DNA of 64,000 nucleotides from Cladopsammia gracilis (lineage: Eukaryota > Cnidaria > Anthozoa > Scleractinia > Dendrophylliidae), in NCBI GenBank assembly GCA_022457155.1, contig JAJGOT010000168.1, forward strand, positions 751,001 through 815,000. Reading direction: 5' to 3'. Below, piece after piece: positions 24,339 to 40,531 of the stretch (positions are counted from its first letter, which is position 1; each line of letters starts with the position of its first letter). The position numbers and the translations under genes are program-made. Under the pieces are notes generated by a model. That model did no database searches. It was given only the letters and a program-made list of their open reading frames with translations, and was not told the DNA's origin.

Positions 24339-24869
24339 TCATTTGAACTTTTTATCGTATCGATCTTCGATTCGACTATTTATTGCTGGACATAAATCGA
24401 TGATTATTTCATCGATCAACCTCATATCGTTAACAAACGATTCGTGATCGAACTGTTTTCCTCGCAGACAAGACCGCAAATCAACCAAAACTTTCTGGTA
24501 TGTCGTAAATGCAAATTTACTCATCTCAATCCGTCGGTTATAATTTTTATAATCGGTAAATGTTTTGACCAACAACCCTGCACCGGAAATGACACCTAGT
24601 ATAACTGGGTTCAACGTAATTCCACCGGCAATCGTACCGCCTGCGATAAGAGACGACGAACTCAATTTACACAAGAGATTCATCCGTTTGAGATGTCTAA
24701 AAGTCTTTTTATAACACCACCATTTCTTGTGATAAAAACTGTAAAGGGACTTGATCACCATTAATTTTGTCTCGTCGATCGATGTATCGATATGATTAAA
24801 TGCAAAAAGATCGTATTTCATTTTATAAAGATGACATACTGATTTTAAAATGATCGCATTCATTTTCAT
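24339..24869 (-). CDS. Hydrophobic-segment protein of unknown function (176 aa)
   Basis: I do not recognise a named domain. Residues about 70-105 form a Gly-rich hydrophobic stretch (LIAGGTIAGGITLNPVILG, then ISGAGLLVKTFTDY), long enough for a membrane hairpin. It is flanked by a basic N-terminal half and a helical C-terminal half (KVLVDLRSCLRG, SRIEDRYDKKFK). Comparable proteins are common in coral and Hydra Polintons to my recollection, but their role is not known to me. A membrane-interacting virion or assembly protein is possible. Two Met codons lie close together at the start (residues 1 and 3), so the start is approximate. Confidence 0.6.
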   Translation of the reverse strand: MKMNAIILKSVCHLYKMKYDLFAFNHIDTSIDETKLMVIKSLYSFYHKKWWCYKKTFRHLKRMNLLCKLSSSSLIAGGTIAGGITLNPVILGVISGAGLLVKTFTDYKNYNRRIEMSKFAFTTYQKVLVDLRSCLRGKQFDHESFVNDMRLIDEIIIDLCPAINSRIEDRYDKKFK

Positions 24870-24985
24870 TCTTGTCTCTTTTATAAATGAGCATGTTCAT
24901 AGTCCTCAATGGTTAAGAGAAACTCGGGAGATCGCTAGAGAGGTCGTAGAAGCACTTGAACACGCTAAGATCTGAAAGATCCCCT

Positions 24986-25014
24986 AATTTATTATACGTA
25001 GCGTATAATAAATT
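24986..25014. promoter_or_regulatory. Perfect 13-bp palindrome AATTTATTATACG...
   Basis: AATTTATTATACG, three-base spacer TAG, then CGTATAATAAATT. It lies in the gap between the fibre-like gene (ending 25032) and the hydrophobic-protein gene (starting 24869). The core TTATTATAC...GTATAATAA recurs at 32212-32234, just before the zinc-ribbon gene. Candidate bidirectional promoter or RNA hairpin. Confidence 0.55.
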
Positions 25015-25031
25015 TTGATTCGCGTAAAAAA

Positions 25032-26825
25032 TTACACCGTCTCAAGCCACAGACTTACCAAACATTTATCGATGGTAGTGCCCTGTAAACTTTGTACTCT
25101 CACACGAAATTCATCACATTCTACCAGAGCGATATCGTTAGTTAAGTGACAGACCTGTTTCTTACCACCCTCTCCCCTTCCTATTACATTATTTATCAAC
25201 ACGGTAATAGGAGGGTACGTTTCGAGCGTATCGAGAATGTTTATACAACATTTTACAATTTTACACTTAACCACAACCATAACTTCCGGTTCTCCTAAAA
25301 ATAGAGCAAACATCTGATTCACAGTTCTCTTGTAAATACCGTTAATTACAAACGCACCACCGCTGGGACTTGGTGAATTGAGAATTGCGTAATTGTTCAT
25401 ATCCAGATCGGTCTGCATAACCATTTTCCTACCCTCCAAAATATAAGGAGTGTCGTAAACACTGGCCGGTACATCTGAGCGGTGTCCTTTTATTCCGTAA
25501 ATTACAAGATAGGCTTGAGCTTGCGAAGGCGATGTTCGCGAGCCGCTACATTTTAAATCGACCTTAATATATTCCGGCGGTGAAATTTTCCACTTATGCA
25601 AATTGATAATGCTTCTAGCGTAATTCGTAAAGTTTTTTGTCGATTGTTTATTTATATTGATAGAAGTCGATTCAACATCGACGCTGACACCTCTCATCGT
25701 AGGCGGGATAAATTCGATACAAACGGTATATTCTCCTTCTGGTAATTTATACATATTAAATCCGATTCTTGAGGCGTAGCTATTTAACGGGTGTTTGTGC
25801 AATAAAAGACTGTAAACTTTTTTGTTTAACGTATGCGGCGACTCCACCAAATCGACTATACCGGTGACGGTTATATCATGTTCGGAACTTGATTGATTCA
25901 CATCTTCCATTAGGTACCTAAAATCATCTTTCAAATTTGTCGAGGTGGTGATATGCGATTCGTCAACATATTTTTTAAGCTTCTCTTCTAATTCTATCGT
26001 ATGAACTACCACACCCCCTATCTTGAGATCAAGATTTTTATCAGCGCCGTCCACATAAGATTTATTACATGCGTCGGAACTGTTTTGTGGATCACCGAGA
26101 TTGGTAATCTTATGGTTTGACATATCGAAATCTTCACCGGACGGATTACTCAATTTACCCGAAATTATATGATCCACGTATCTTTTATTTGCTCCTTGGT
26201 CGGCGACCGTCGGGTCTTTCATATTATAAACCGTATTATTTCCCATGTCCAAACTAGTCTCCATCGGAAACGTCTCTTTGCGAGATAAGAAAATATTCCT
26301 AACATCGTTGTAAGAGACTAGATTGTTATAATTTGCTCCTAAATCGTGATAAGTCTGTTGTTTCGATTGGACAACATTGAAACGTTCTTTCAGATCGATA
26401 TTTTTCACGACCTCATGCGTCGGTTCAGGAGCGTTAGGATGAAATTTTTTCAGAGTCACCATATTGACAGCGCATAAATCGTTATCTTCGTCCGTGTCCA
26501 TATTGGTGATAAGTTTTCTGTTCATATCGATCTCTCCGGGAAGAATGATCTTATTTCCTCGTAGATCTAAATCACCGGTCATATGAGTCGATCCATCCAA
26601 GTTCAGAAAGTGTGTTTTAGCGGTACCCCAGTTCGTTACATCTTTTAAATTTACCGGATCGGCGACATTCACCAATCTTTTGTTTTGAATATCGTAATCA
26701 CCCGAAGACGTTAATTTAAAACCGACACCCGGTAATCCTGGCGGTCCTTGTTTTCCTCCCGTTTTATAACTGTTAGTTATGCAACTAGTTATGTTGTCTG
26801 ATAATAGCCCATTTGAATAGCTCAT
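25032..26825 (-). CDS. Fibre/spike-like trimeric protein (597 aa)
   Basis: Probably a projecting virion fibre. After 26 residues comes a short collagen-like GPPGLPG. Then four related repeats follow (residues about 40-260) of the form D-M/L-x-N-x-x-I/V-x-N-x-x-DP-x-x-x-x-D-A-x-N-x-x-YVD, seen clearly as LDMGNNTVYNMKDPTVADQG...RYVD and FDMSNHKITNLGDPQNSSDA...SYVD. Such repeats form trimeric beta-prism or beta-helix shafts in phage tail fibres. The C-terminal half (about 290-597) is beta-rich and may hold jelly-roll head domains. It overlaps nothing; the ATPase stop is 1 bp upstream, so the two are probably one transcription unit. Target and host range cannot be inferred. Confidence 0.7.
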   Translation of the reverse strand: MSYSNGLLSDNITSCITNSYKTGGKQGPPGLPGVGFKLTSSGDYDIQNKRLVNVADPVNLKDVTNWGTAKTHFLNLDGSTHMTGDLDLRGNKIILPGEIDMNRKLITNMDTDEDNDLCAVNMVTLKKFHPNAPEPTHEVVKNIDLKERFNVVQSKQQTYHDLGANYNNLVSYNDVRNIFLSRKETFPMETSLDMGNNTVYNMKDPTVADQGANKRYVDHIISGKLSNPSGEDFDMSNHKITNLGDPQNSSDACNKSYVDGADKNLDLKIGGVVVHTIELEEKLKKYVDESHITTSTNLKDDFRYLMEDVNQSSSEHDITVTGIVDLVESPHTLNKKVYSLLLHKHPLNSYASRIGFNMYKLPEGEYTVCIEFIPPTMRGVSVDVESTSININKQSTKNFTNYARSIINLHKWKISPPEYIKVDLKCSGSRTSPSQAQAYLVIYGIKGHRSDVPASVYDTPYILEGRKMVMQTDLDMNNYAILNSPSPSGGAFVINGIYKRTVNQMFALFLGEPEVMVVVKCKIVKCCINILDTLETYPPITVLINNVIGRGEGGKKQVCHLTNDIALVECDEFRVRVQSLQGTTIDKCLVSLWLETV

Positions 26826-26826
26826 T

Positions 26827-27462
26827 TTAGATTATATTTTCATTAAAATTTTTTAATATTCTTTTCTTTGGTTTGTCAATATATAGAAAAGAATATGGAT
26901 CTTTTGTAGCCATTTCATATTGATTTTTATCAACATTATTTTCACGACAAAACATAGAAACTTCGTTATTGCTTGGAAATTCAAAAATACAAAAATGTGA
27001 ACAGTTTAGACGTATATCTTTTGGTGTTTTATAATAACTTTGTGAAAGATAGATAACGCTACAATTTTTATGTCTACCATTGATAAAATAATCAATCAAC
27101 GGATCTTGGTTCTTTTCACAAACAAAATCATCGAATATAACTATTTTTTGGTTCTCGTCCGTTAATTCAGAAACCGGTATAATATAATCGTTACTTGCTT
27201 CTATAACATCAAAACCTGCTTCTTCACTAATCGGTTTAAATTCTCGTAATAAGAACTGATATTTAGATTGATCTAAATTTTTCGCATACAGATAAGCCTT
27301 GTCAAAAAACAATAAACGAATAATCATATCTAGCAAAATATTTGTTTTTCCAGAACCTGAAGGGCCACAAATCAACATTCTGAAATTCTGTTCTGGCATG
27401 AAAGGTTGTCGCTGCTTGTAGCTCGTAACCATATCATCCACATCATAGTTTATAAACTTCAT
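26827..27462 (-). CDS. ATP: Genome-packaging ATPase, A32/FtsK-HerA type (211 aa)
   Basis: Pumps DNA into capsids in related viruses. Walker A is GPSGSGKT at residues 33-40; Walker B is IVIFDDF at about 107-113 with the second acidic residue in place. A sensor-like YLSQSYYKTPKDIR follows near 145-158. Length is normal for Polinton ATPases. Its ATG is 49 bp from the divergent gene at 27512, so this gap must hold a bidirectional promoter. Downstream, the fibre-like gene follows after one base. Confidence 0.93.
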   Translation of the reverse strand: MKFINYDVDDMVTSYKQRQPFMPEQNFRMLICGPSGSGKTNILLDMIIRLLFFDKAYLYAKNLDQSKYQFLLREFKPISEEAGFDVIEASNDYIIPVSELTDENQKIVIFDDFVCEKNQDPLIDYFINGRHKNCSVIYLSQSYYKTPKDIRLNCSHFCIFEFPSNNEVSMFCRENNVDKNQYEMATKDPYSFLYIDKPKKRILKNFNENII

Positions 27463-27511
27463 CTTACTGAAATAACAATTATAAAATTTAAAATCGAATA
27501 ATAGTAATAAA
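27463..27511. promoter_or_regulatory. Divergent promoter gap between the two gene blocks
   Basis: Only 49 AT-rich bases (with AATTATAAAATTTAAAAT) separate the leftward ATPase and the rightward Pro-rich gene. Every leftward Polinton gene lies on one side and every rightward gene on the other, so transcription must start at or near here in both directions. Confidence 0.6.
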
Positions 27512-28369
27512 ATGAGTTTAATTAAGTGGAAAGAACTTGCAAAACAACAAACTAAGTTGGGGAATAAGATTAATTTTGTTCATGAAACGCTAACAAAGAA
27601 AAAATTAGGCGAAGAGACAAGTCAATTGGCTTATGAAAAAATATTTAAGCCGATAACATCAAAATTAGATGTACCGGTATCATCGGTGGGTAAAAGCAAA
27701 GTACCAAAGAAACAAGCTGTTCAAAGTGCTAAAGATATTGATTATTATCCAGAAGTAGATCCATATGAAGAGATGGATGTAGAAGGTTTAATCGATTTTG
27801 GTGAAGAGGTTTTACCAGAACAAGAGAAACAACCACCGCTGCCATATGCAGATTCACCACCACCGTTATATTCACCGGGTCAATATATGAAAATAAGACA
27901 ACAAAGAGCTCTGGAAGAAAAAGAAATATTTGAAAAATACGGTTTGCCTATTATTGAAACTACCGAAGAATCACCAGAAGAGACGCTTGAAGCATATGAT
28001 AGCGCAGTAAAAGAGTTAGGAAAAGAAAAACGAAAATTAACGACTTTAATCAATAAATTAGAAGATTCTACAGAAAAGGAAAATCTCAAAGAACAAAGAG
28101 AGCGACTGCAACGAGAAAGTTCCGTAATTACTGTGAGAAGAGATAAATTAAAAAAGACCGGTAAAGGACTTGGAAGAAACCTAATATTTTTCAGCAATCC
28201 TAAAGAACTTGTCAAAAAACTTGAACTAATAGTAGGTGAAATTATAGCCGGTAATACAAATATCGAGATGCGTAATACCGGAGTTACAATTTTAGACGAA
28301 CTTTTGAAATCATCGCTAATCGATAAAAGGCAGGCTAAACAGATTTATAAGAAATATTTTAAATATTAA
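27512..28369 (+). CDS. Pro-rich/coiled Polinton protein of unknown function (285 aa)
   Basis: Three regions are visible. The N-terminus (about 1-60, KWKELAKQQTKLGNKINFV, then YEKIFKPITSKLD) is conserved-looking. An acidic Pro-rich linker (about 85-130) contains PPLPYADSPPPLYSPGQY, including a PPLY match to the PPxY late-domain pattern. The C-terminal half has charged coiled-coil (KEKRKLTTLINKLED, ENLKEQRERLQRESS) and a final helical block (RNTGVTILDELLKSSLIDK). I do not know its function. Its place as first gene before penton and capsid genes suggests a structural or assembly role. Confidence 0.65.
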   Translation: MSLIKWKELAKQQTKLGNKINFVHETLTKKKLGEETSQLAYEKIFKPITSKLDVPVSSVGKSKVPKKQAVQSAKDIDYYPEVDPYEEMDVEGLIDFGEEVLPEQEKQPPLPYADSPPPLYSPGQYMKIRQQRALEEKEIFEKYGLPIIETTEESPEETLEAYDSAVKELGKEKRKLTTLINKLEDSTEKENLKEQRERLQRESSVITVRRDKLKKTGKGLGRNLIFFSNPKELVKKLELIVGEIIAGNTNIEMRNTGVTILDELLKSSLIDKRQAKQIYKKYFKY

Positions 28370-28394
28370 AATAATATCACCACTATAAAATAGG

Positions 28395-29153
28395 ATGGAT
28401 AGAGAAATTGTGTTATCATCATATTCTGTCAAAACAGAAGCCAACAACAAACCTGAAGATTTCACAACAAATTTTACTGAAGCAATTGTTTTGGACCCGA
28501 ATGAACAATATGTTATCGGTCTTAACAGAATTATCAATATGAGCTTTACATGGTTCAATATTAATGCTAAATACGCTAATCAGTTGATCAGATACAGCTC
28601 TGATGGTGGAAAAACTTTTTCTGATATTTCTTTTCCAGGCGGTGTTTGGGATTATGAAGATATTAATCTACATATTCAAAAAGAAACTGTCATAAAACAA
28701 CCTAGAAAAGACGATGAGTTTCCGATCAGCCTGGTTTTTAATACCACAACTTTTAGAGTAACAATAACGCTGAAAGAAAATTATCAACTCGATCTAACAC
28801 AAAGTAACTTTAACGAACTGATCGGTTTTGATAAAAAAGTTCTGAAGGAACAGATAAATATAGGACCCCGAGTTCCAAATCTGTCTCAAGATACAGATAT
28901 TTTGAACGTTCATTGTGATCTGACAAATAGATCGCTTGTTGATGGCGAAGCTACCGATATCATTTATTCCTTTTCAACATCTGTTCTGCGACCATCTTAT
29001 AGTTTTACTCTTGAACCAAAGAGAGTAACATATAACCCTGTGAATAAAAACACAATAGACAGTATCCGAATCCGTATCACGGATGGAAAAAGAAGAAAGG
29101 TCAACCTAAATGGAGCCGATACAGCTTTCTCATTAATTTTAAAAAGAATATAA
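28395..29153 (+). CDS. mCP: Probable minor capsid protein (penton), single jelly roll (252 aa)
   Basis: Would form the capsid vertices. The beta-rich sequence contains the blocks typical of Polinton pentons: an opening strand region (REIVLSSYSVKTEANNKPED, 20 residues), EQYVIGLNRIINMSFTWFNI, QLIRYSSDGGKTF, and FPGGVWDYEDINLHI. Length suits the family (about 200-270 aa). It stands in the capsid gene cluster two genes before the major capsid protein. The ATG is 25 bp after the previous stop, after the AT-rich CCACTATAAAATAGG. The identification rests on sequence style and context, not on a search. Confidence 0.65.
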   Translation: MDREIVLSSYSVKTEANNKPEDFTTNFTEAIVLDPNEQYVIGLNRIINMSFTWFNINAKYANQLIRYSSDGGKTFSDISFPGGVWDYEDINLHIQKETVIKQPRKDDEFPISLVFNTTTFRVTITLKENYQLDLTQSNFNELIGFDKKVLKEQINIGPRVPNLSQDTDILNVHCDLTNRSLVDGEATDIIYSFSTSVLRPSYSFTLEPKRVTYNPVNKNTIDSIRIRITDGKRRKVNLNGADTAFSLILKRI

Positions 29154-29170
29154 TATAGTAATGTAATAAA

Positions 29171-29575
29171 ATGAAAACTTATGAATTTACTCGTTATTAT
29201 AACCCGAAGATGGGTAGACATGTTTACAAGCACAAAGGAACAGGCGTCATTATCGATAATATTTTTAAACCGATGAAGGCTGTCGCATCAGCAGTTTTCA
29301 AAAAATTCGCGAAACCTATTGCGAAAAAAGCGTTGGAAGCCGGAATTTCTCATGCTGGCGAAAAACTAGGTAAAAAAGCAGTTGAAAAATCTGGTGATCT
29401 GTTAATGAAAAAACTAGGTAAAATGAGAATATCTCCTAAAGCAACTACTAGTGCGACTAGTACTAGTAGTTCTAGTACTAGTACTGGTAGTAGGCCGTTA
29501 CAAAAACAACAAGAAGATACTAATGTGATATTAAACAGATTGATATCTGGTAGCGGTATAAAAAGAAAAAAATAA
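29171..29575 (+). CDS. Small basic Polinton protein (134 aa)
   Basis: Strongly basic with an amphipathic helical middle (FKPMKAVASAVFKKFAKPIA, 20 residues), a Ser/Thr-rich linker encoded by ACTAGT-like repeats, and the end LISGSGIKRKK. ISGS|G fits the adenain cleavage consensus (M/I/L)xGx|G, so it may be a protease substrate like adenovirus core or cement proteins. The gene sits between penton and major capsid protein, 17 bp after the former. A DNA-condensing or membrane-active role is plausible; I do not recognise a family. Confidence 0.6.
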   Translation: MKTYEFTRYYNPKMGRHVYKHKGTGVIIDNIFKPMKAVASAVFKKFAKPIAKKALEAGISHAGEKLGKKAVEKSGDLLMKKLGKMRISPKATTSATSTSSSSTSTGSRPLQKQQEDTNVILNRLISGSGIKRKK

Positions 29576-29593
29576 AATCTATAATAAAAACAA

Positions 29594-30838
29594 ATGGCTT
29601 TCCGAGCGAGTGAAAATTTACGAAAAAATCAATTGGTAAGATTTCAACTGGATAGTTTGATTAGAGCTCCGGCCATTGGAGAACAACAAGATAAAGGTGG
29701 TTATATATTCACAATTAATGACAGGTCGTCGTATTATGACTGGTATAATGCTTATTTTGAAGTACAATTTCAGTTACAAAAATTAGCAGACGGTGCCGGT
29801 TATGCGGCAGCTGATAGAATAACAGTTCTTAACGGTGCTCATTCATTAATTAAGCATATGACGATTAGATCTTCGAATAAGATAATTTATGATACTGATA
29901 ATCTGCATAAAGTTACTTTTGTTAAAAATTTGTTGGAATACTCTGATGACTTCAACAGATCGACAGCAAAAAACAGTTTCTGGTATCTGGATACGGATGC
30001 AACAACCGCTAACACGAATGCAGGATTTGAAGCGAGGCGGGTACAAACACAAGCGGTTCAAAACAATGGTAACGGTGGCGCTAAAAACATTAATACGATT
30101 ATACCTCTGTATCGTTTTTCCTTTTTCGAAGAGTTGGAAGATAAGATGCTTGTACCTATGCAGCTACAATTCGAGATTGAGCTTCAAAACGATAGCGAGC
30201 TGATTCACATGGCTAACGGTGTTGATGAGGGAAGAGTTGTTGTGAATAGGTTTTTGCTTTGGGTTCCTAGAATAACACCCAAACTTTCGATTTCGACAAA
30301 TTTTGTCAACTCTTTTTTGAAAGAAAAACAATGGAACTATTTAAGGGAGAAGTATGCAAAATCACCTCCTACACTAACATCAGGATTTTTTCAAATAAGC
30401 GCTGGTATTGATAATGTTAAACATGTTTTCGTTTATCTGAAAAGAGCCGCTCCACCTAATAATGATAATGCAGAAGATAACCCTTATCTTATGGACACGT
30501 TCAAATTAAATGCTGCGGATAATAACTCATCGCTGGCAACTTGCAAATTAGAGTATGGAAATGGGCTTTATTTCCCGGATACACAATATAATGCTGAAAG
30601 TAAGATAAGAATATTAAACGATGTAGCGTCTTACGCAATGAGGAAAACTGATGTAAACAGCGGGACACAGCTGAATTTCGCCAATTACAGCTCTCTCTAC
30701 GGTCTGATCTATTTCGATCTGACTTGTCAAGATGAAAAGATAACAAGAGATCCCAAACAGTTATTATTCAGATATACATTGACAGCAGATGCAACTGCAA
30801 ACTTTAACGTACAATGTACATGCGATAGTTTTGTATGA
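29594..30838 (+). CDS. MCP: Major capsid protein, double jelly roll (414 aa)
   Basis: Forms the trimeric hexon-like capsomers. The opening (VRFQLDSLIRAPAIGEQ) is followed by FTINDRSSYYDWYNAYFEVQ and HSLIKHMTIRSSNKIIYDTD, the family's first jelly roll. Then come PLYRFSFFEELEDKMLVPMQ, a WVPRI/ISTNFVNSFL link and the second beta-rich half ending YGLIYFDLT and FNVQCTCDSFV. Length and order agree with Polinton capsid proteins. It lies 19 bp after the small basic protein and before the pX-like gene. The frame is intact. Confidence 0.88.
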   Translation: MAFRASENLRKNQLVRFQLDSLIRAPAIGEQQDKGGYIFTINDRSSYYDWYNAYFEVQFQLQKLADGAGYAAADRITVLNGAHSLIKHMTIRSSNKIIYDTDNLHKVTFVKNLLEYSDDFNRSTAKNSFWYLDTDATTANTNAGFEARRVQTQAVQNNGNGGAKNINTIIPLYRFSFFEELEDKMLVPMQLQFEIELQNDSELIHMANGVDEGRVVVNRFLLWVPRITPKLSISTNFVNSFLKEKQWNYLREKYAKSPPTLTSGFFQISAGIDNVKHVFVYLKRAAPPNNDNAEDNPYLMDTFKLNAADNNSSLATCKLEYGNGLYFPDTQYNAESKIRILNDVASYAMRKTDVNSGTQLNFANYSSLYGLIYFDLTCQDEKITRDPKQLLFRYTLTADATANFNVQCTCDSFV

Positions 30839-30939
30839 TCAGCTGATAAAAATAGATAAGGTTGGAAATGAGTTGGTCATCGCGTAAGCGTAAATTCATT
30901 TTAAACAAAAAATTTTGTATTTACAATACTAAATACAAA

Positions 30940-31731
30940 ATGACAAGATACCATCCTTACAAAGTAAGTTTAACAGAAGGGCAGAAAGAAAAACTTGCAA
31001 GAGCATATAAAACAAGCAGCCCCATCACAATTAGATTAGCGAAGTCACAGACAAGCGGTAACGATGAGCTACTGCTAACGTCTACACAGATCAATAGGAT
31101 CGGTAAAGCGAAATCGCTTGGAAGCGGTGTCGAGATAAAAATATCAAAAACACAGATTAGAAAAGTATTGAGAGAAGGTGGAAGTCTGTGGAGCGCAATT
31201 ATTCCGTTAGCACGTTCGTTAGCACCGACTTTAGCTAAAACACTCGGTTTATCGGCGATTGCCGGTTTAGCGAGTGAAGGAGCAAGTCAAATTGTTAAAA
31301 AGATAAGCGGTAAAGGTCAAACCGGCGGTTTCCTCATCCCTCCAGATAAGATTCAACAACTGATCGATTATAAACATTTGCTGACAAATAAACAGAAACA
31401 AGAAATTCTGAACGCTCTTCAATCGGGAGGACGAGTACTAATAAAGCCGACAAAAACACAATCTGGAGGGTTATTAGGAACTATTTTAGCAAGTATCGGT
31501 ATTCCGCTGGCTGTTGAAGCGTTTAAAAAATTGACCGGTTCAGGTGCACCCAGAATGGGTAGACCTAAAGATGGAAAAGGAGTATTGAAAAACCCTTATC
31601 AACCTCCTCCATTTTATGGCCAATGGGGGAAAAATACTGTTGGTATGGGAACTAAAAAAAAGGGAAAAGGGTTACTTTTAGGACCGAACAGCCCGTTCAA
31701 CAAGATACCGTTAGTAGGGGCACTCCTGTAA
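30940..31731 (+). CDS. pX-like Polinton virion protein, protease substrate candidate
   Basis: The frame is open from TTG 30862, but ATG 30940 (MTRYHPYKVSLTEGQKEKL) best fits the usual start; ATG 30868 is also possible. The conserved N-terminus contains SPITIRLAKSQTSGNDELLL and EIKISKTQIRKVLREGG, then a hydrophobic helix (APTLAKTLGLSAIAGLA). Several adenain-like sites are visible: ISGK|G, QTGG|F, QSGG|R, QSGG|L and LTGS|G. This pattern is like adenovirus pX/pVI precursors. Near the 3' end the codons AAA AAA AAG form an A AAA AAG heptamer (31656-31662) from which a -1 shift would enter the protease frame. Confidence 0.7.
   Translation: MTRYHPYKVSLTEGQKEKLARAYKTSSPITIRLAKSQTSGNDELLLTSTQINRIGKAKSLGSGVEIKISKTQIRKVLREGGSLWSAIIPLARSLAPTLAKTLGLSAIAGLASEGASQIVKKISGKGQTGGFLIPPDKIQQLIDYKHLLTNKQKQEILNALQSGGRVLIKPTKTQSGGLLGTILASIGIPLAVEAFKKLTGSGAPRMGRPKDGKGVLKNPYQPPPFYGQWGKNTVGMGTKKKGKGLLLGPNSPFNKIPLVGALL
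31656..31662 (+). promoter_or_regulatory. Slippery-type heptamer A AAA AAG (pX to protease)
   Basis: Eight A residues then GGG; in the pX frame the codons read A|AAA|AAG, the X XXY YYZ register. The -1 frame is the protease frame, whose preceding stop codon ends at 31655. A weak AAAAG/CTTTT stem lies 2 nt downstream and a 7-bp hairpin (CACTCCT gta AGGAGTG, 31721-31737) covers the pX stop. No strong stem occurs at the usual distance. Confidence 0.45.
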
Positions 31732-32189
31732 GGAGTGTAAGGAGTGTAAAGCCTAAATTCATAAACAAACCGCTAAGTAATGCTGATCTGATGAAGTGGA
31801 TCTCATACCTTAGAATTCCTAATTTCAAAGGGATATATTCAAGGGATGAAGTTATGCCTAAAAATCATAGTCCATGCATTATTAATCTCGATTCGCTTGA
31901 AAATGCCGGTTCTCATTGGGTTTGTTGCGCACCATCTCACGATAATAACTTCGTGTGGTATTTCGATAGTTTTGGCATGGGTTATCCCGAAGAATTTACA
32001 AGTGGCGGAAAACAGATAATCTATAATTCAAGTCAGTATCAAAACATAAAAAGCGTCCTTTGCGGTTATTATTGTCTTTATTTCCTTCATCAATGGTCAC
32101 TCAAGAAAGATTTTTATGATATCTTGCAGCCGTTTAGCTTAACAGATACATTGTTCAATGAAAAGTTCATAAAAAAATATTTTATGTAA
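31656..32189 (+). CDS. PRO: Adenain/Ulp1-type cysteine protease
   Basis: Matures capsid precursors. Numbering from the internal ATG at 31791, the catalytic set is visible: His42 (AGSHWV), Asp59 (WYFDSFG), Gln82/84 (SSQYQ) and Cys91 (VLCGYYCLYF). The family normally carries about 12-25 residues before this Met, and here the upstream codons (KPLSNADLM) do look like family sequence but contain no ATG back to the stop at 31653-31655. The gene therefore probably begins by -1 frameshift from the pX frame, or by splicing; initiation at 31791 would give a shortened protein of 132 aa. Confidence 0.85.
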   Translation, partial: KKGKRVTFRTEQPVQQDTVSRGTPVRSVRSVKPKFINKPLSNADLMKWISYLRIPNFKGIYSRDEVMPKNHSPCIINLDSLENAGSHWVCCAPSHDNNFVWYFDSFGMGYPEEFTSGGKQIIYNSSQYQNIKSVLCGYYCLYFLHQWSLKKDFYDILQPFSLTDTLFNEKFIKKYFM

Positions 32190-32211
32190 GCGTATTTAAA
32201 ATTAGAAATTT

Positions 32212-32234
32212 TTATTATACAAATCGTATAATAA
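32212..32234. promoter_or_regulatory. Palindrome TTATTATAC...GTATAATAA before the zinc-ribbon gene
   Basis: Nine-base arms around AAATC, ending 1 bp before ATG 32236. The same core occurs in the longer palindrome at 24986-25014. It could be an initiator/TATA-like promoter or an RNA hairpin separating the two rightward transcription or translation groups. Confidence 0.5.
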
Positions 32235-32235
32235 G

Positions 32236-32403
32236 ATGGAACCGCTAACACAAAAAACATTTTGCGTCAAGGAAAAAATAAAAACCGGTTGTACTGAACC
32301 ATCCGGTTATAAGATAGCCGCCAACGGTAGACCTTATTTTTGGTGCACTTGCGCTAATTGTGGAATCAAGAAAACCCGTTTCGTTAAGAGTTCGGAAAAC
32401 TAG
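32236..32403 (+). CDS. Small zinc-ribbon-like protein (55 aa)
   Basis: A short ORF: opening MEPLTQKTFCVKEKIKTGC, then YKIAANGRPYFWCTCANCG and a basic end. The CxxxxK...NGRP...C-x-C-x-x-CG arrangement resembles the small viral zinc-ribbon family (DUF5679-like, YCVKCK...NGRPALKG.CPVCG), except that the first CxxC is replaced by CVKE. It overlaps the PLA2-like frame, which is -1 to it, and its last codons plus stop (GGAAAACTAG) precede a stable hairpin. Likely a small nucleic-acid-binding protein; role unknown. Confidence 0.65.
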   Translation: MEPLTQKTFCVKEKIKTGCTEPSGYKIAANGRPYFWCTCANCGIKKTRFVKSSEN

Positions 32404-32432
32404 TTGGGCCCCCACAAGGTGGGGGCTTTTTT
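32394..32432 (+). promoter_or_regulatory. Candidate -1 frameshift signal, zinc-ribbon to PLA2
   Basis: G GAA AAC (32394-32400) is read in the zinc-ribbon frame just before its TAG. A 7-nt spacer follows, then a perfect 8-bp stem GCCCCCAC-AAG-GTGGGGGC (32408-32426) and T6. The heptamer is not canonical X XXY YYZ but has the GGA-type form of GGAUUUU, a natural plant-virus shift site. The hairpin plus T6 also looks like a bacterial terminator, which is not expected in a eukaryotic element. Confidence 0.45.
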
Positions 32433-32468
32433 GATGTGGAAGGTAGTCATAGTCTTGGAGAGATAGCT

Positions 32469-33011
32469 ATGAAAGCCGGTATGAAAGGTCTTTACAATTT
32501 AGGACGAATAGGTGCGTCAAAAGCCATCGAATCAGACTTTGTAAAGAAAAAGATTAAATCAGCCGCTAATAAGTATATAGATCAGGCTTTGGACAGTTTC
32601 ACGGGAGACTTATCGAAAAGACTCGATCCGCTTCACCACGGTAGCGGTGTCGACATTCATAAAATGATCGGTAAGCTTCCGAAACCGAAAGGCGGTTGGA
32701 CATTACCCGGACATAAATACACAGGACCATACAATGACTTGGATACACAACTGACGTATGATCCGGAAACAGGAAAAATACTGGAGATCTACGAACAGCC
32801 GACGGGTGAAACGGATGCTATAGCGATGCAGCATGACGTTGATTATTCTGTGTGCGCAAATAAACCGGAACCGCGTAAATGTAAAAACGATGCGGATAGA
32901 AAAATGGTGAAAGCTTTGGATAGCGTGCCCTATAACGATCGACAATGGGGCCACTGGTTAGCTAGAAATACTATCGACGTAAAACAAAAACTTGGGTTGG
33001 GAAACGGATAA
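32469..33011 (+). CDS. Phospholipase A2-like virion protein
   Basis: The frame is open from 32388 but its first ATG is 32469 (MKAGMKGLYNLG); GTG 32436 is not a credible eukaryotic start. After a basic helical N-terminus comes the PLA2-like core: a calcium-loop-like YTGPYNDL, the catalytic AMQHDVDYSVC (His-Asp at 32832-32837), and KCKNDADRKMVKAL. Parvovirus and adintovirus capsids use such domains to breach membranes during entry. It is encoded between protease/zinc-ribbon and integrase and ends GLGNG with TAA at 33009-33011. It is -1 to the gene before it and the integrase is -1 to it. Confidence 0.75.
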   Translation: MKAGMKGLYNLGRIGASKAIESDFVKKKIKSAANKYIDQALDSFTGDLSKRLDPLHHGSGVDIHKMIGKLPKPKGGWTLPGHKYTGPYNDLDTQLTYDPETGKILEIYEQPTGETDAIAMQHDVDYSVCANKPEPRKCKNDADRKMVKALDSVPYNDRQWGHWLARNTIDVKQKLGLGNG

Positions 33012-33973
33012 GGCCGCCGAGTAAAAACGTAGAGACGTGGCAAGAAAAGCTTGCAGACGAGCTGCATAAACCTATAAGACGAAAGTTTACTCGGCGGCGT
33101 GTTATTGTAAACGGTATCGATGAGATATGGTGCTCCGACCTTGTCGAGATGCAGAAATTAAGTAAGTGGAATAAGGGATATCGATATCTTCTCATGGTGT
33201 TAGATGTTTTCAGTAAATACGGTTGGATTGTACCGTTGAAGAATAAAAAGGGAGAGACCGTTAGGGAAGCGTTCAATTCGCTATTCAAGAAAGGAAGAAA
33301 ACCGAAAATGCTGTGGGTGGATAAGGGAAAAGAGTATTACAACAAGAATATGAAAGAACTGTTGGATAAAAATAAGATAGTGATGTATTCGACAGAGAAT
33401 GAAGAAAAATCTAGTGTTTGTGAAAGATGGAACCGTACGATAAAAGAGAAAATGTATAAACAATTTACCGTTCAAAACAATACCGTGTATTATGATATAT
33501 TACCGATGATATTGAAAGAATACAATAATTCAAAACACCGAAGCATCGGAATGACACCTGTGGAAGCGTCGAAGAAAAAGAACGAAAGTGCTGTTTACTT
33601 AAATCTGTACGGTAAGATGAAACGGATATACACAAAACCATCTTTTAAAGTTGGGGATAAAGTTCGAATATCAAAATACAAACGTCCTGTTTTCGATAAA
33701 GGTTACACACCGAATTGGACTGAAGAGATTTTTACTATCGATAAGATTCGATACACTAACCCTATAACTTATAAACTGAAAGATGAGCTGGGTGAGGAGA
33801 TAACGGGTTCTTTTTATAAGGAAGAGCTGCAGAAGGCTGTTCAAGACGTTTACCGTATTGAGAAAGTGATTCGACGAGATGCTCGAAAAGGTAAAGCGTT
33901 AGTGAAGTGGAGCGGGTATAGCGATAAATTCAACTCTTGGGTAGATTTGAAAGAACTGAAAGATCTGCGGTGA
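32966..33973 (+). CDS. INT: Retrovirus-like integrase with C-terminal chromodomain
   Basis: Integrates the element. The RNase H-fold core has D in IWCSDLVEMQ (33137-33139), D in MLWVDKGKEYY (33320-33322) and E in SSVCERWNRTIK (33422-33424), the DDE triad. A C-terminal chromodomain (VYRIEKVIRRDARKG, then VKWSGYSDKFNSWVDL, about 33850-33960) probably directs insertion to chromatin. The first ATG in frame (33149) is after the first catalytic Asp, so translation cannot start there. The frame is open back to the TAG at 32963-32965 without any ATG. Expression by -1 frameshift from PLA2, or by splicing, is required. Confidence 0.92.
   Translation, partial: KYYRRKTKTWVGKRIRPPSKNVETWQEKLADELHKPIRRKFTRRRVIVNGIDEIWCSDLVEMQKLSKWNKGYRYLLMVLDVFSKYGWIVPLKNKKGETVREAFNSLFKKGRKPKMLWVDKGKEYYNKNMKELLDKNKIVMYSTENEEKSSVCERWNRTIKEKMYKQFTVQNNTVYYDILPMILKEYNNSKHRSIGMTPVEASKKKNESAVYLNLYGKMKRIYTKPSFKVGDKVRISKYKRPVFDKGYTPNWTEEIFTIDKIRYTNPITYKLKDELGEEITGSFYKEELQKAVQDVYRIEKVIRRDARKGKALVKWSGYSDKFNSWVDLKELKDLR
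32999..33098 (+). promoter_or_regulatory. Candidate -1 frameshift signal, PLA2 to integrase
   Basis: G GGA AAC (32999-33005) stands in the PLA2 frame in exact X XXY YYZ register. The PLA2 stop is inside the 7-nt spacer (33006-33012). A perfect 13-bp stem follows: GCCGCCGAGTAAA (33013-33025) with TTTACTCGGCGGC (33086-33098), loop 60 nt. GGGAAAC with a structure 5-9 nt downstream is a standard retroviral-type -1 signal. A shift here enters the integrase frame, which is open on both sides of the site. Confidence 0.65.
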
Positions 33974-33982
33974 AGATCTCTT

Positions 33983-34060
33983 CTTTTCATTTCATGAACG
34001 TGAAATGAAAATTTAAAATGGTATTAAAAAATAAAATATATTGATATAAGATACTTACGT
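33983..34060 (+). promoter_or_regulatory. Hairpin and shared promoter-like motif before SAP-PolB
   Basis: TTTTCATTTCA and its complement (TGAAATGAAAA) form a hairpin like those near the leftward paralogues. It is followed by AAAATGGTATTAAAAAATAA and 28 bases later ATG 34061. The GGTATTAAA motif is shared with the two leftward SAP genes. Confidence 0.5.
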
Positions 34061-34492
34061 ATGGATTCAAAAACTGTTGAACAGCTTAAGGCAATTGCAC
34101 GTGAAAACGGTTTGAAAGGTTATTCACGTTATAGGAGGAAAGCGGAGCTGATCAAATTCATTGAAAGTAGTATAAATACTCCACCACCTCCCCCACCACG
34201 CGGTATCGTTAATTTTATAGATGAACCTTCACCACCTCCACCACGTGGTATCGTTAGTTTTATAGATAAACCCTCTCCACACCGAAGAAGAAAAAGACAA
34301 CCCTCACCATCTCCGCCCCGAAGAAGGAAAAATAGACAGCCCTCTCCACAACCCCTAGAAGATCATCAATCAGAGATACCGTTAGAATCTGAAGATTCTG
34401 ACCGTAAACGACAAAAGAAGAGACAAAAGACCCGTAAAACAAAGAAGGAGAAGAAATTGGAAGAGGTCGAAAATAGATCTGAAAGATCTGAA
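34061..34492 (+). pseudogene. PolB: SAP-PolB gene, 5' part (before transposon insertion)
   Basis: ATG 34061 opens a SAP motif (TVEQLKAIARENGLKGYSRY, 20 residues, then RKAELIKFIES). Pro-rich repeats follow (PPPPPRGIVNFIDEP, PPPPRGIVSFIDKP), then an Arg/Lys-rich tract with SPSP motifs. The coding sequence breaks at 34493 where the inserted transposon begins; the final 43 residues of the apparent ORF (to 34621) come from the transposon. The 3' part resumes at 36499 in the same frame once one TGAA copy and the insert are discounted. SAP plus PolB fusions suit DNA-tethered replication. Confidence 0.75.
34489..34492. repeat. TGAA target-site duplication of the inserted transposon (left)
   Basis: TGAA directly precedes the left terminus GGAGGGGGACATTGGGG and is repeated at 36495-36498. 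Four-base duplications are made by, for example, Sola and some CACTA/Chapaev transposases. Confidence 0.8.
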
Positions 34493-34889
34493 GGAGGGGG
34501 ACATTGGGGGGTAGGCCATACCGCAATACCGCAGCATAAAATCAAAAATACCGCAATACCGCAAGGAAAATCAACAAAATACCGATACCGCAGGTATGGA
34601 TATCAGGCAGGTACCACGTGACACTCTCGTAACAGTTCCAGGTTGCATACCGAAAATGTGAATTGCTCTCTCCAATTATATCCCTTTGTCCTCTTAACAC
34701 TCCGAATGTGTGGTTCCAGAAAATATCCATACCCCCTACACGGATGGTCTTTCAATTTAGATCCCCCCCCCCCCCCCCCCCACCCCCAACCAACTCGACT
34801 TTTCTTTTTACACTTTTCAAATTCAGGCTTTAAAAAGACGTTCACTTGGTTTACACACAACATTTGTGACCTCTCACACGAAAACGATA

Positions 34890-35155
34890 CTGACGGCTAT
34901 CCGTTCGAGCCGTTCAAGCTGTTCACTAGCCGTTCATCAGCCGTTCACGAACGACAGGAGGCCGTTCGAACGGCTGTGATTTCGTGATTAGCCGTTCAAA
35001 AAATTTACTCAGCCGTTCGAACAGCTGCTGCTAGCCGTTCAAAAGAACCTTCAGCCGTTCGAACGGCTGCTGCTAGCGTTCAAAAACAACTTCAGCCGTT
35101 CGAACGGCTAGGGCTATCCGTTCGGAAAAACTATTCAGCCATTCGAACGGCTAAT
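34890..35155. repeat. Array of palindromic AGCCGTTCGAACGGCT sites
   Basis: About a dozen AGCCGTTC half sites. Several are arranged as perfect 14-16 bp palindromes AGCCGTTCGAACGGCT spaced roughly 50 bp apart. Located inside the transposon that interrupts PolB. Could be multiple transposase or host-factor sites, or only a satellite seed. Confidence 0.75.
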
Positions 35156-35744
35156 GATTTACCTATTCCCCGGAATCCGGAATCTTGAGCGTGAAATCCT
35201 AAAAGCCGGAATGAATCAAAACATGAAAAATAAATAAATATTCGTTTAATACCCGTTTAATTTTTCGTACATGACAACGCGTGGCGCAGTTTTCCGATTC
35301 CTTACTTTACCTTTTTACGCCAAAATTTTGACTATAGCGTGACCTGATTGTATAACGCACGCTGTGGTCCAAACTGAGTATAGTGCGACACATCGCGCTT
35401 CGTTGTGAAGCACATTCACAGGCTTAGCCAATCTATAAACAGGATAGATGAGAGTGAAATTGTGGCGGCACAAGCGGCCCGTTGAAACGAAGTAGTCCTG
35501 TAGTCGCGATTTTAAATTTGTCACATTCCATCATGAATTTATGCATGACGCTATTGTTATACGGTAGAGATTACACATGGCATCTAGGGATCTCTTAGGG
35601 TCGATTTTCAGCCGTTTGAGGGAGTCCGGTTTTCAGATCCTCCTCCCAACGGTATGTACTTGGTGTATCCCATATTATTTTGTATTTAAACACTTAGTTT
35701 TTATTTCAGTAGAAATAAAACGTAAAAAAACAGTAGAATAGGGA

Positions 35745-35812
35745 AACGAACCCGGGCCGAATGATCTGCTCTCTACACCACCGAGGACTAGCTGCCGGAA
35801 AATGTAATTCAG
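35745..35812 (-). repeat. tRNA-like (SINE) segment inside the inserted transposon
   Basis: On the minus strand: GGCAGCTAGTCCTCGGTGGT (A-box region), then GTAGAGAGCAG and CCCGGGTTCGTTTCCC (B-box-like). The T loop GGTTCGTTTCC differs from the consensus at two positions and the 3' acceptor is not complementary to the 5' end. Probably SINE-derived. Confidence 0.4.
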
Positions 35813-36494
35813 TTTTTAAGGGATATAAGATAATATGCTGCTAGCCCAGACTAACCCAGAACTAACCCTTTCGATACACTGGAAATACTGGAATCAGTGC
35901 TTAACCCTAAATACTAAAATCAGTGCTTCAACCCTAGATACTGTAATCCGACCCTACATTACACTGCAATATATCTAAATACATTACAATGAGGGATACA
36001 TTATGATCAGGGATACACCAAGTACCTAGGCTCCCAACAAGTGGTATGCGCGAAGGAACGCGAGCGCACAAAACGGCGGGTAATCGGGTAGTTTCTTGGT
36101 GTTGCGGATGGTGTGATCACCAAATGACGTAAAACAAAAGATTCAAAAGACACTGTACAATACGTACCCACACCACAACACAAAAGATAACCAACAATAG
36201 CTTCCGCAACACCAAGAAACACCCGGTAATCGAGCCTAGGGATCTCTAGGAGTGTTATTTGATAATGCTATTTGGGGAATGGCAGCAAAGGTCAGCAAAT
36301 CATCAGCCTGTCAAATACCGAAATACCGCGCAAAAAAACGTGTTTCACCGAATACCGCAGTCCGAAATAATCAAATACCGCATACCGCAGTCTCAGATAA
36401 TACCGAAATACCGCGTTCAAAAATAAAATTTACCGAAATACCGCACGAAAAATGGACCAATACCGCGATACCGCGAACCCCAATGTCCCCCTCC

Positions 36495-36498
36495 TGAA
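36495..36498. repeat. TGAA target-site duplication of the inserted transposon (right)
   Basis: Second copy of TGAA, immediately after the right terminus CCCCAATGTCCCCCTCC. Confidence 0.8.
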
Positions 36499-39400
36499 GA
36501 TGAACAAATTTCGACAAATAATAAGAAGAGACAAAAGAAACTAAAGAGGGAGGCTGCCCGTCTAACAAAGAAAATCAGCCGTGCAAAAAACAAACGTGGC
36601 GCACTGTTCTTACAAGAAAAACTAAACCAAGTTTTGAAAAAGATCGATAGCCGAAGATTACCCTATGAGATAATCAAGATAGGTGAGAATACAAGTAACA
36701 AGTTCAGATCGTTTTTCGATATATTCAAAGTTAAGATAGTAAACCCTCGTGAAATATTCGATATTGATAAATTACTGCTAGAAATAGGGCTCAGAGTAAT
36801 AAAAGAGAGAGGGTTACAAAACGGTGACAAGATTCGATGGATACTTAGTCATCCGAGTTGGTATAAACCGGTCAGTACAAAACGAATCACGATCACAGAT
36901 CACCTTGGGACGGATCTTGTCGAAGAGATAGCTAGATTCATTGAATACAAGGATGTACCGCTCCCCGAGGTCAAAATAGAGATTCAGTCGGTAAAGGTTC
37001 CCCGGGGAATGGGCCGATTACGTGTAACAAAATTAAATGCCAGCGATAAAAAGAGTATAATCACAATCAAAAATAATGACTCAATCTGTCTTGCGCGAGC
37101 AATAGTGACGGCTCGTGCAAACATAAATAAACAAAAATGGACACCATCTCAGTTGAAAAACGGGTTCAATAGCTCGAGAAAACTGCAGAAAGACGAAGCT
37201 ATCAAACTTCATAAAGAAGCTGGAGTGGAGATCAACGAGGAAACCGGTTCAGATCTGGAAGATGTAAAGAGATTCGCGGAACATCTTAAGATTCAGATAA
37301 ACATTGTAGACGGCGATCGATTCAATGATCTGATCTTTACTACCGATAATGAGCACGATGGACAGATGATATACCTTTACAAAAACAAAAACCACTTCGA
37401 CGTTATCACAAGTATGCCAGCGTTCTTGTCCAAAAAATATTATTGTCACACCTGCAAAAAGCCGTACACAAAACGCGACTGTCATAGATGCCCCGCAAAA
37501 TGTACAGCATGTTTCAAGTACTTTCCACACGGAGTGAAAAAGTGCTCTAAACCGCCAATTCCATGCGATAAGTGTAATAGGTCTTTCTTTGGAGTAGATT
37601 GTTTTATGGAGCATCTACGTGAACGATCCACATGGGGTAGTAAAGACACTGTGTGTAAAAAAGTAGGTAAATGTTTGAAATGCGAGCGTACAATTACATC
37701 TTCTAAAAATAATGGCCTAAAGAATCACATCTGCGGATATTCGAAGTGTAGTAATTGTGAGAAGTACTGTGATATGAATGAACATCTTTGTTTCATGTCT
37801 CAAACGGAATGTAGGGGTGGAAAATGTCAAGGTTACGGATGTAAGGATGGAAATCTGTGTTATTCTTGTCGGACAAGAACCGATAAATACATGTTCTATG
37901 ATTTTGAAGCGACTCAGGAGACCGATGTTCATGAGGTCAATTTAGTCGTCTGTCACGATTTTTATGGAGATAAAAATACGTTTGAAACGCTCGACGAATT
38001 TTGTAGATTTATTTTTAACAAGAATGAGCATGTGGGGTATACCTTCATAGCTCACAATGCAAAAAGTTACGATGCTCAGTTTATTCGAAATTGGTGTATA
38101 GAGAACAGAGTGAAACCCGATATTATCTACAACGGAACAAAGATTATGTCTATGAAGGTTGAGGGTGTTAGATTTATTGATTCTATAAACTTTATCGCTG
38201 CGGGGTTATCATCGTTCCCAAAGACATTTGGTTTGAAAGAGTTGAAAAAAGGGTATTTTCCACATTATTTCAACACAAAGTGTAACCAAAACTATGTAGG
38301 ACCGATTCCTGATAAGAAACACTATGATTATGATCAGATGAAACCTTCAGCGAGAAAAGAGTTCTTAAGATGGTACCAACAACGTATTGATGAAAACTAT
38401 GTGTTTGACATGAAGAAGGAGCTGAGAGATTACTGTGATAGTGATGTAGACATCCTCAGAAGAGGTATGTTGATTTTTCGAGAACAGTATATCGAGTTAG
38501 GTAACATCGACCCTCTTCAATATATAACCATCGCTTCTGTATGCATGACCATGTACAGAAGTAACCACATGCGTCGTGAAAAGATCGCTGTTGTAAAGGA
38601 AATTACACGTGGAGAGAACTACAGTAAAAGTAGCATCGCATGGTTAGATTGGATTTCTCAGAGAGATGGTGTTAAAATAAAACACGCTCTGAACGGTGGT
38701 GAAGAGACTTTACCAGATATCGGAAAGGTTGATGGGTTTTGTGGGAATACGGTCTATGAATTTCAAGGATGTTTTTGGCACGGTTGTGAGAAGTGTTATA
38801 CATGTGACACAATCAACACAAAAAATCAGATGGATATGTTAACTCTAAGAAAGAGGACGGTAGCGAAAAACGATAAGATTAGAGCTGCCGGGTATGAGCT
38901 GGTTGAGGTTTACGAATGTGAACTGAAAAAGGAGAAAGATTTTAATAAGTTTCTAAAAACGTGGAATCGGGAATTTGTAGGACCTCTTAACCCTAGGGAC
39001 GCATTTTTTGGTGGACGAACAAATATAACAAAACCGACCTACACATTCAAAAAAGGTGAGAAAGGTAGATATGTCGACTTTGTTAGTTTATATTCAACGG
39101 TACAGTTCTTCAAGCATTATCCGATAGGTCATCCTACAAAGATATTCGATCCTCCTCAAGAGTACGATGAGAACTGGTTTGGTTTTGTGAAATGTAAAGT
39201 TTTACCTCCAAGAGGTCTTTATCATCCTGTGTTACCGGTAAAAATAAGATGCGATAAGGCTGAAAAGCTGCTATTTCCGCTCTGTAGAGTGTGCGCTGAA
39301 AATAAGATTCAGGAATGTACACATACAGATGATGAACGATCATTCATCGGAACATGGTGCACAAATGAGCTGAATGTGGCGATTTGTAAAGGGTACAAGG

Positions 39401-40326
39401 TTGTAAAGATATACGAGGTGTGGCATTTCCCTAAAAGATCAGATGACCTTTTCAAGAGTTATGTAAGAAAATTCATGAAGATCAAGATGGAATCGAGTGA
39501 ACTGAAGGTTGGGGAAGGTTGTACATATAAGAGTGTTGATGAGTACAAGGCTATTGTTAAATCAAAGTTAGGAATCGAGCTTGATGAGATTGAGTACAAT
39601 CCTGGAAGGAGGGCGATAAGTAAGATCTCTCTGTGTAGCTTATGGGGAAAGTTTGGTCAGCGTAATAACATGAATCAGACTGTGTACGTCACTGAACCAA
39701 AAGAATTTTACAAGATCTTGTTAGATGAAAGCATAGACGATCTGAACATTCAATTCTTAAACGAAGATATGGTTGAAATGACTTACAACTTGAAAGACCA
39801 GTTCGTTGACAATAGTAATAACACAAACATATTTATTGCTGCCTTCACAACCAGTCACGCTAGAATGATGCTGTATGAAGTGTTGGATAAACTCGGTGAT
39901 CAGGTTCTCGGTTTTGACACCGACAGCTGTTGGTATATCGAACGTGAAGGGGGACAGCGAATCGAAACAGGTGACAGCCTCGGCGATCTAACCGATGAGT
40001 TAAACGGACATTATATTACGAATTGGTGCGGTTCTGGTCCAAAATCATACAGTTACAGTACAAGTGATGGGAAGATGGAATGTAAGGTCAAAGGTTTCAC
40101 TCTGAATCACAAAAATAGTCAAAAAATAAATCAAAAAACGATGAAACAGATCATCGAAGGTCAAAAGGAACGAATAACAACCGTAAACGAACGAGCAATA
40201 ACTCGGGATCCCTCTACAAAACAGGTTGTAAATAAGTACCAGAAAAAAGACTTTCGGATGTGTTACGATAAACGGTGTATGGTGAAGACTGAATCTGGTA
40301 TCGAGACTTTTCCGTACGGATATTAA
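36499..40326 (+). pseudogene. PolB: Protein-primed DNA polymerase B, 3' part (after the insertion)
   Basis: Replicates the element. The apparent start TTG 36634 is not a real start; the frame is open back to the transposon at 36498 and matches the frame of the 5' part. Numbering from 36634: an N-terminal block with NDSICLARAI and NKNHFDVITS (OTU-like Cys/His pattern), a Cys-rich region (about 270-415), Exo I FYDFEATQE (Asp423), Exo II AHNAKSYD (474-480), polymerase motif A VDFVSLYSTVQ, motif B KISLCSLWGKFGQ and motif C FDTDS. Two deviations stand out: SLYP is SLYS, and the motif B Asn (NSxWG) is Cys. The stop overlaps the first base pair of the right TIR (40324-40326). Confidence 0.88.
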
Positions 40327-40525: not shown

Positions 40526-40531
40526 CAAAAC
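40526..40531. repeat. Polinton target-site duplication CAAAAC (right)
   Basis: Exact copy of 21402-21407. Confidence 0.92.

Follow-up and report, generated by a model that had tools for sequence, protein, structure and literature searches.

Programmed −1 ribosomal frameshifting takes place at slippery heptamers of the form X XXY YYZ that are followed by an RNA structure 5-9 nucleotides (nt) downstream. In mouse mammary tumor virus (MMTV) and human T-lymphotropic virus (HTLV), gag-pro-pol is expressed by a double −1 frameshift, and bacterial insertion sequences make their transposase by −1 frameshifting. Closer to the element described here, −1 slippery sites have been predicted with KnotInFrame for the Penton gene of adintoviruses, and a similar relationship was noted for Hexon and Adenain, as given in the accessible text of PMC11071296. 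We analyzed a window of 64,000 nt from the coral Cladopsammia gracilis (Scleractinia; contig JAJGOT010000168.1, positions 751,001 to 815,000), which contains a full-length Polinton of 19,118 base pairs (bp; 21408-40525, all positions being those of the window). This element carries signals at three junctions between its genes, namely from pX to protease (site 1), from zinc ribbon to PLA2 (site 2), and from PLA2 to integrase (site 3). The further copies with which we compared it all come from this one host genome (an assembly of 878 Mb) and share ancestry. On the basis of this comparison, the late genes would use three programmed −1 frameshifts, two of them in series, such that zinc ribbon, PLA2, and integrase are joined, a reading to which we assign a probability of about 0.88. 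That sites 2 and 3 are selected RNA signals appears close to certain from the same alignments.

Signals from zinc ribbon to integrase

A first-pass annotation, made from the window sequence, had assigned protease, PLA2, and integrase to the −1 frame relative to the gene that precedes each of them, with heptamers at 31656, 32394, and 32999 and with 7-nt spacers and stems of 8 bp and 13 bp at sites 2 and 3. All of these features were found again: the frames run 1, 0 for pX and protease and 1, 0, 2 for zinc ribbon, PLA2, and integrase, the three heptamers are in the zero-frame phase, and spacers and stems have the lengths given (Table 1). The further claim that no ATG precedes essential family sequence is correct for the integrase of the window, the first Met of which comes after the first Asp of the WCSD motif, which we take to be catalytic. 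It is only partly correct for the protease, as its first Met (residue 46) lies inside the conserved domain start and ahead of the GTHW-type His.

The window copy alone is suggestive only. When codons were shuffled, the chance of an in-phase permissive heptamer in the overlap was p = 0.26, 0.07, and 0.12 at sites 1, 2, and 3, respectively, and the z-scores of the folds were −4.33 at site 3, −1.41 at site 2, and −0.62 at site 1, of which only the first stands out clearly. The site 2 heptamer of this copy departs from the strict X XXY YYZ form (XXX = GGA). It is the comparison among copies that decides. For this, we used two sets of loci (L001-L030 and L031-L060), each of which comprises the best 30 of 120 matches listed, and 12 matches that were hand-picked for odd frame lengths (L061-L072). 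The resulting 72 loci represent 71 places, as L049 repeats L003.

At site 3, all 72 loci have a canonical heptamer, which is G GGA AAC in 49 and A AAA AAC in 23 of them, followed after exactly 7 nt by GCCG[CT][CT]GAGT and a complementary arm. The distance between these pattern-fixed parts ranges from 48 to 75 nt, and only in multiples of 3. Phase and PLA2 stop position were read in 68 of the 72 loci: the heptamer was in the zero-frame phase in all of those checked, and the listed stops lie anywhere from +10 to +46 relative to the heptamer start. As the PLA2 frame ends variably while heptamer and stem are conserved, it is the signal that was kept and not the PLA2 tail.

The stem at site 3 was evaluated with 13 pairs in 42 rows, chosen by hand from 58 distinct rows. 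Paired cells amounted to 97.8%, compared to 25-56% when the partners were slid by 1-3, and the broken cells comprise ten at the innermost pair and one each at the outermost pair and at a pair that occurs as C-G or U-A. Two pairs were altered on both sides, one from C-G to U-A in four rows and one from A-U to G-C in a single row. Both halves of the C-G to U-A change alter the integrase (P to L and R to Q), and protein coding therefore fails to explain it. The synonymous entropy of the integrase (56 distinct open reading frames, ORFs) has its minimum in the 45-nt stretch that includes the heptamer and the 5' arm (0.0, 4 codons), and its second-lowest value in the stretch that begins at the 3' arm (0.099, 7 codons). 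Of the codons with a degeneracy of at least 4, 4/5 were invariant in the stem arms versus 4/65 elsewhere (p = 3.6e-4, in a test that was picked after seeing the data). With unfused queries, integrase frames long enough for a fusion with PLA2 were seen in 0 of 120, 0 of 120, and 1 of 150 matches listed. In the last of these searches, the integrase frame had at most 435 codons in 149 matches and 591 codons in the remaining one.

A third family has another stem at the same place. We hand-picked 40 loci (L093-L132) from the 150 matches to an unfused integrase piece, and A AAA AAC was in phase in 39 of the 40 sampled PLA2/integrase junctions of this family, the exception L099 having an indel. The heptamer is followed by GGGAAA(A), or by GGAAAA(A) in L104, and then by the hairpin AGATTTTGAGT/GCTCAAAATCT or a near variant, the 3' arm of which falls within the loop region of the other families. 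In 13 rows (12 of 15 distinct rows, with L079, L080, and L099 left out, plus L083), 99.3% of the cells were paired, and the subfamily of L075 and L077 shows compensation at two pairs. The number of pairs altered on both sides was 2, compared to 0.5 in shuffles, of which 35 of 500 reached as high a value. Two non-homologous stems thus occupy one place after a like heptamer, and in our view no other single observation argues as strongly for selection at the RNA level. For four of the 150 matches, the upstream parts were also read (L133-L136, two of which are the same elements as L095 and L101), and all three −1 steps are kept in these third-family elements.

L045, which belongs to a decayed family, retains A AAA AAC, 7 nt, and a 12-bp stem at its PLA2/integrase junction. 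It has two zinc ribbons, one of which is directly joined to a pX-type C-terminus (GLLFGPNSPF).

The signal at site 2 is kept in 68 of the 72 loci and consists of GG[GA]AAAC, a 7-nt spacer composed of TAG and four bases, and a 19-nt hairpin. The heptamer is G GAA AAC in 39 of these loci and the strict G GGA AAC in 29. Its phase was read in the 57 loci with a recognised zinc ribbon, and in all 57 the −1 frame is closed shortly upstream of the heptamer (L045 aside). The pair counts were made with all 18 distinct rows, to which L133 and L134 from the third family were then added (L135 and L136 have the same sequence there as L134). In these 20 rows, 97.5% of the cells were paired; one pair occurs as G-C, C-G, U-G, and U-A, and another as A-U and C-G. 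The covariation was 0.327, compared to 0.121 in shuffled rows, none of which (0/500) had as high a value. In the third family, the zero-frame stop TGA replaces TAG, and heptamer, spacer, and hairpin are unchanged. Of the four loci without the signal, one is the decayed L045. In the other three (L035, L039, and L040), a single frame encodes both zinc ribbon and PLA2, and the heptamer is missing along with the hairpin; these loci are near-identical and perhaps reflect one event. The copy comparison thus supports the view that zinc ribbon, PLA2, and integrase could be joined by two successive shifts, as had been suggested in the first-pass annotation.

The pX–protease site and competing explanations

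The −1 step from pX to protease, with an A6-type heptamer in the pX phase, is found in 49 of 50 readable loci, the other ten of the 60 four-kb loci having no recognisable protease start. The window copy belongs to a lineage with A AAA AAG. In the sister lineage with A AAA AAC (39 loci), a stop at the heptamer opens the protease frame eight codons ahead of the domain, and the first protease Met (counted from 0) lies at 90-94 in 38 of the 39 loci, which is beyond the HW motif (53-57); in L041, it lies at 52. The protein relatives P0309 and P0297 read as pX and protease in a single chain. A6-type sites can slip without a structure, and a frameshift at site 1 is likely from these alignments, although less secure than those at sites 2 and 3. 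Conservation across copies of heptamer, spacer, and compensatory stem changes is therefore seen at sites 2 and 3, whereas at site 1 it concerns the heptamer and not a structure; most loci there also have no early ATG in the protease frame.

Several observations weigh against the frameshift reading. At site 1, no downstream structure was found, with z-scores of −0.62 in the window and of 0.31 to −2.08 over eight variants. Other points concern start codons. In the protease frame, a Met lies upstream of the heptamer in L034 and L046 and at position 42 in L134-L136, and the protein relatives P0246, P0249, and P0259 have a Met just before the protease domain. In the integrase frame, an ATG precedes the catalytic Asp in 16 of 64 loci surveyed (out of the 72). 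The PLA2 frame of the window has its first ATG at 32469, and a protein begun at this position would retain the catalytic domain. Third-family elements (L133-L136) have an upstream ATG in the PLA2 frame, which stays open across the zinc ribbon; this speaks against exclusive frameshifting at site 2 in that family. Usable own ATGs in the protease or integrase frame, which the first-pass annotation had regarded as contradicting its proposal, are thus present in some copies and relatives.

These ATGs would be in agreement with separate genes that have their own starts, be it by internal ATG, leaky scanning, reinitiation, or non-ATG initiation, the heptamers then being accidents of A-rich coding sequence. 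We regard this explanation as improbable. The remaining 48 of the 64 loci lack any ATG ahead of the catalytic Asp in the integrase frame, and the proteases of the A AAA AAC lineage have no Met before 52 in all 39 loci and none before 90 in 38. Separate starts would also leave unexplained the fixed 7-nt spacing, the covarying stems, and the loss of the signal in copies with zinc ribbon and PLA2 in frame. Independent starts fail for most integrases, and for PLA2 they are possible.

A further group of adverse points comes from copies in which a shift would not be needed. The fused query P0209 located full-length open frames, and 15 of 20 junctions fetched (L073-L092, from 89 matches) have PLA2 and integrase in one frame. 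In seven of them (L075, L077, L078, L079, L081, L084, and L085), this is due to an extra A in the slippery run, with the stem remaining; in L076 and L080, it is due to an extra spacer base; and in L073, L074, L083, L086, L087, and L088, it is due to other changes. Such copies may be functional variants, products of decay, or the result of sequencing (homopolymer) error. P0209 is a query that favours fused copies, and the unfused query had the one fused-length frame among 150 matches listed. At site 1, L038 has pX and protease in a common frame, and the A-run of its junction is longer than in most loci. Same-frame copies, which the first-pass annotation had likewise named as counterevidence, hence do occur. 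In L035, L039, and L040, the signal is absent together with the need for it, which fits the frameshift reading, and the 15 fused-query copies and L038 stand beside them. A fourth family was noticed around L091.

The pair statistics also include values that were not above shuffles. This applies to further pair types at site 3 (253 of 500 shuffles), at site 2 (208/500), and in the third family (500/500), and to pairs changed on both sides at site 2 (497/500). In addition, related rows may beat the shuffles of such pair tests without any structure, and the compensatory changes correspond to few events given the shared ancestry.

Introns that join the frames are a very unlikely explanation. Protein models of relatives do join PLA2 and integrase, and some of these joins resemble gene-finder introns, as judged from the proteins alone. 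Conserved GT-AG pairs in the right phase exist within families, with four at site 3 in F1, one at site 3 in F2, and one of 44 nt at site 2. However, no site 3 candidate is common to F1 and F2, and no candidate was found at site 1 in 39 loci (pairs of at least 35 nt, 95% conservation, limited range). Splicing also needs no stem 7 nt past a heptamer, and intact vertebrate Mavericks are reported as intronless in the accessible text of PMC8097293. As sites 2 and 3 carry the odds, L038, the in-frame copies, the splice candidates, and the weak pair controls leave the odds of the frameshift reading unmoved.

Frame-shifted mRNAs that arise from slippage of RNA polymerase on A-runs are even harder to reconcile with the data. 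Runs of 6-9 A are present at site 1 and, in two families, at site 3, but G GGA AAC at sites 2 and 3 has no long run, and slippage of the polymerase would need neither stems nor spacing. Decay, with the frame breaks as old indels in dead copies, can practically be dismissed: the PolB gene of the window Polinton is split by another transposon of ~2 kb, some listed copies carry stops, and several junctions have indels, but the terminal inverted repeats (TIRs) are identical and the target site duplication (TSD) is intact, the same three −1 steps recur across three families with different stems, and G GGA AAC, spacing, and covariation would not be explained.

The host element and its setting

The element has several of the features that define Polintons/Mavericks, namely long TIRs, a 6-bp TSD, a protein-primed PolB (PF03175, DNA_pol_B_2), and an integrase with PF00665 and PF00385. 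The positions of the features are collected in Table 1. The name pX is taken over from the first-pass annotation and presumably fits. The PF00770 match of the protease is weak (E=0.0021, under the gathering score), and 2 of 116 homologues are precomputed as PF00770.

Table 1. Positions of the junction signals, the adjoining genes, and the element ends in the window
Feature	Position	Strand	Frame (position mod 3)	Remarks
pX-like ORF, stop to stop	30856-31731	+	1	zero frame for site 1; without Pfam match
Site 1 heptamer A AAA AAG	31656-31662	+		pX phase; −1-frame stop TAA directly upstream (31653-31655)
Adenain-like cysteine protease	31656-32189	+	0	−1 of pX; first Met is residue 46
Zinc-ribbon ORF (DUF5679)	32236-32403	+	1	ATG 32236; zero frame for site 2; PF18930 E=1.3e-5, just under cut-off
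Site 2 heptamer G GAA AAC	32394-32400	+		zero-frame phase; −1-frame stop TAA 32385-32387
Site 2 hairpin GCCCCCAC-AAG-GTGGGGGC	32408-32426	+		7 nt (32401-32407) past heptamer; 8 bp, 10 bp in fold
PLA2 (parvovirus-type) ORF	32388-33011	+	0	−1 of zinc ribbon; zero frame for site 3; PF08398 E=1.2e-9
Site 3 heptamer G GGA AAC	32999-33005	+		zero-frame phase
Site 3 stem, 13 bp	5' arm 33013-33025, 3' arm 33086-33098	+		7 nt (33006-33012) past heptamer
Integrase, rve and chromodomain (PF00665, PF00385)	32966-33973	+	2	−1 of PLA2
TIRs of Polinton	21408-21608 and 40325-40525			201 bp, 100% identical
TSD CAAAAC	21402-21407 and 40526-40531			6 bp, both flanks of Polinton

The insertion in PolB extends over 34493-36494; its ends are inverted (GGAGGGGGACATTGGGG), and TGAA appears to have been duplicated. 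On either side of it lie an N-terminal part from 34061, presumably SAP-like, and the polymerase ORF 36427-40326. In the search for a packaging ATPase or capsid gene, ORF 29588-30838 had no Pfam match, ORF 27485-28369 had a weak match below the cut-off, and the reverse-strand ORF 26827-27579 was outside the scan. An Rfam scan of 31400-33400 gave two matches, both under the gathering score (E 0.29 and 0.94), which we took as chance; a known RNA family was thereby rejected for this range.

In each of two lists of 120 protein relatives, the few organisms named are stony corals (Stylophora and Oculina), and a search of IMG/VR for relatives yielded none that was confirmed. L001-L060 look mosaic, with two types of pX/protease junction and two N-terminal modules of PLA2 (FFDVEGSHSLGE and FGEMAMEGLTMHALPW) combined with nearly the same integrase, and this make-up suggests recombination between elements. 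Two minus-strand ORFs attracted our attention. The ORF at 25032-26831 (599 aa) contains a GPPGLPG stretch that resembles collagen, together with units that recur around DLDM, I.NL, and NK.YVD, which to us are reminiscent of phage tail-fibre proteins, and the ORF at 23095-23568 has tandem Cys-rich CKEC/CKDC repeats of 18 residues (a 54-bp repeat). Outside the Polinton, tandem direct repeats of ~193 bp each are found at 19238-19675.

Proposed mechanism and comparison with known systems

According to the proposed mechanism, a ribosome that translates pX would occasionally slip at A AAA AAG, or at A AAA AAC in the sister lineage, and thereby produce some pX-protease. A ribosome that translates the zinc ribbon would slip at G GAA AAC or G GGA AAC, held by the hairpin 7 nt downstream, to give zinc ribbon-PLA2, and a fraction of these ribosomes would slip again at G GGA AAC or A AAA AAC with the second stem 7 nt downstream, to give zinc ribbon-PLA2-integrase. 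Two shifts in series would result in a falling ratio of products, with the integrase as the lowest. From the signals, we infer the slippage itself, its rate, its purpose in dosage, and the transport of the integrase into particles as a fusion. We slightly favor the wider view that the particle receives integrase and maturation protease as fusions with virion proteins, at a fixed low dose as in retroviruses, and this in an adenovirus-like DNA element. Part of this wider view is that a sister family has re-formed the stem of the integrase site with another partner, from which it would follow that the system is old and maintained by selection.

The frameshift reading offers a testable answer to the question of how a Polinton could keep the amounts of integrase and protease below those of its structural proteins. 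It would link integrase and protease to likely virion proteins, which bears on the question of Polinton particles, and it suggests that a strategy best known from retroviruses occurs in eukaryotic DNA elements as well. Annotations that treat these ORFs as broken or as joined by introns would need correction. The variety within this one genome also represents many natural variants of heptamer, spacer, and stem.

A search of the literature, mostly at the level of titles and abstracts, found no frameshift site between PLA2 and integrase and no chain of such sites in Polintons, in line with the first-pass annotation, which knew of no such chain. Retrovirus-like dosage by frameshifting is not clearly shown before for a Polinton-type element, while single −1 shifts had already been proposed for adintoviruses in the accessible text of PMC11071296. 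Adintoviruses are related elements that likewise encode PolB and an integrase with chromodomain, and the Hexon-Adenain case would place the protease in the −1 product, as proposed here. However, that proposal is a prediction only, and the accessible text of PMC11071296 names none of the three sites (pX-protease, zinc ribbon-PLA2, PLA2-integrase) and neither a chain nor covariation.

The in-frame relatives are zinc ribbon-PLA2 and zinc ribbon-PLA2-integrase proteins (P0006 and P0209, which are protein models, and the loci L035, L039, and L040); their domains and domain order agree with those described here but lie within a single chain, so that a shift is unneeded. Bacterial insertion sequences are similar in that a DNA element keeps its recombinase scarce through −1 slippage on A-runs, but they are prokaryotic and have a single site without an upstream structural gene. 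The likeness to MMTV and HTLV extends further, as it includes two successive −1 sites, overlapping ORFs, canonical heptamers, a structure a few nt downstream, and an integrase that comes last and, in the Polinton, would be the rarest product. The Polinton differs from these retroviruses in being a DNA element with PolB, in having zinc ribbon and PLA2 upstream instead of Gag, in a protease that would come from a separate third site, and in that heptamer and stem type vary between sister families. The match with retroviral gag-pro-pol is hence one of architecture only, with two −1 sites in series that end in an integrase, and homology is not claimed.

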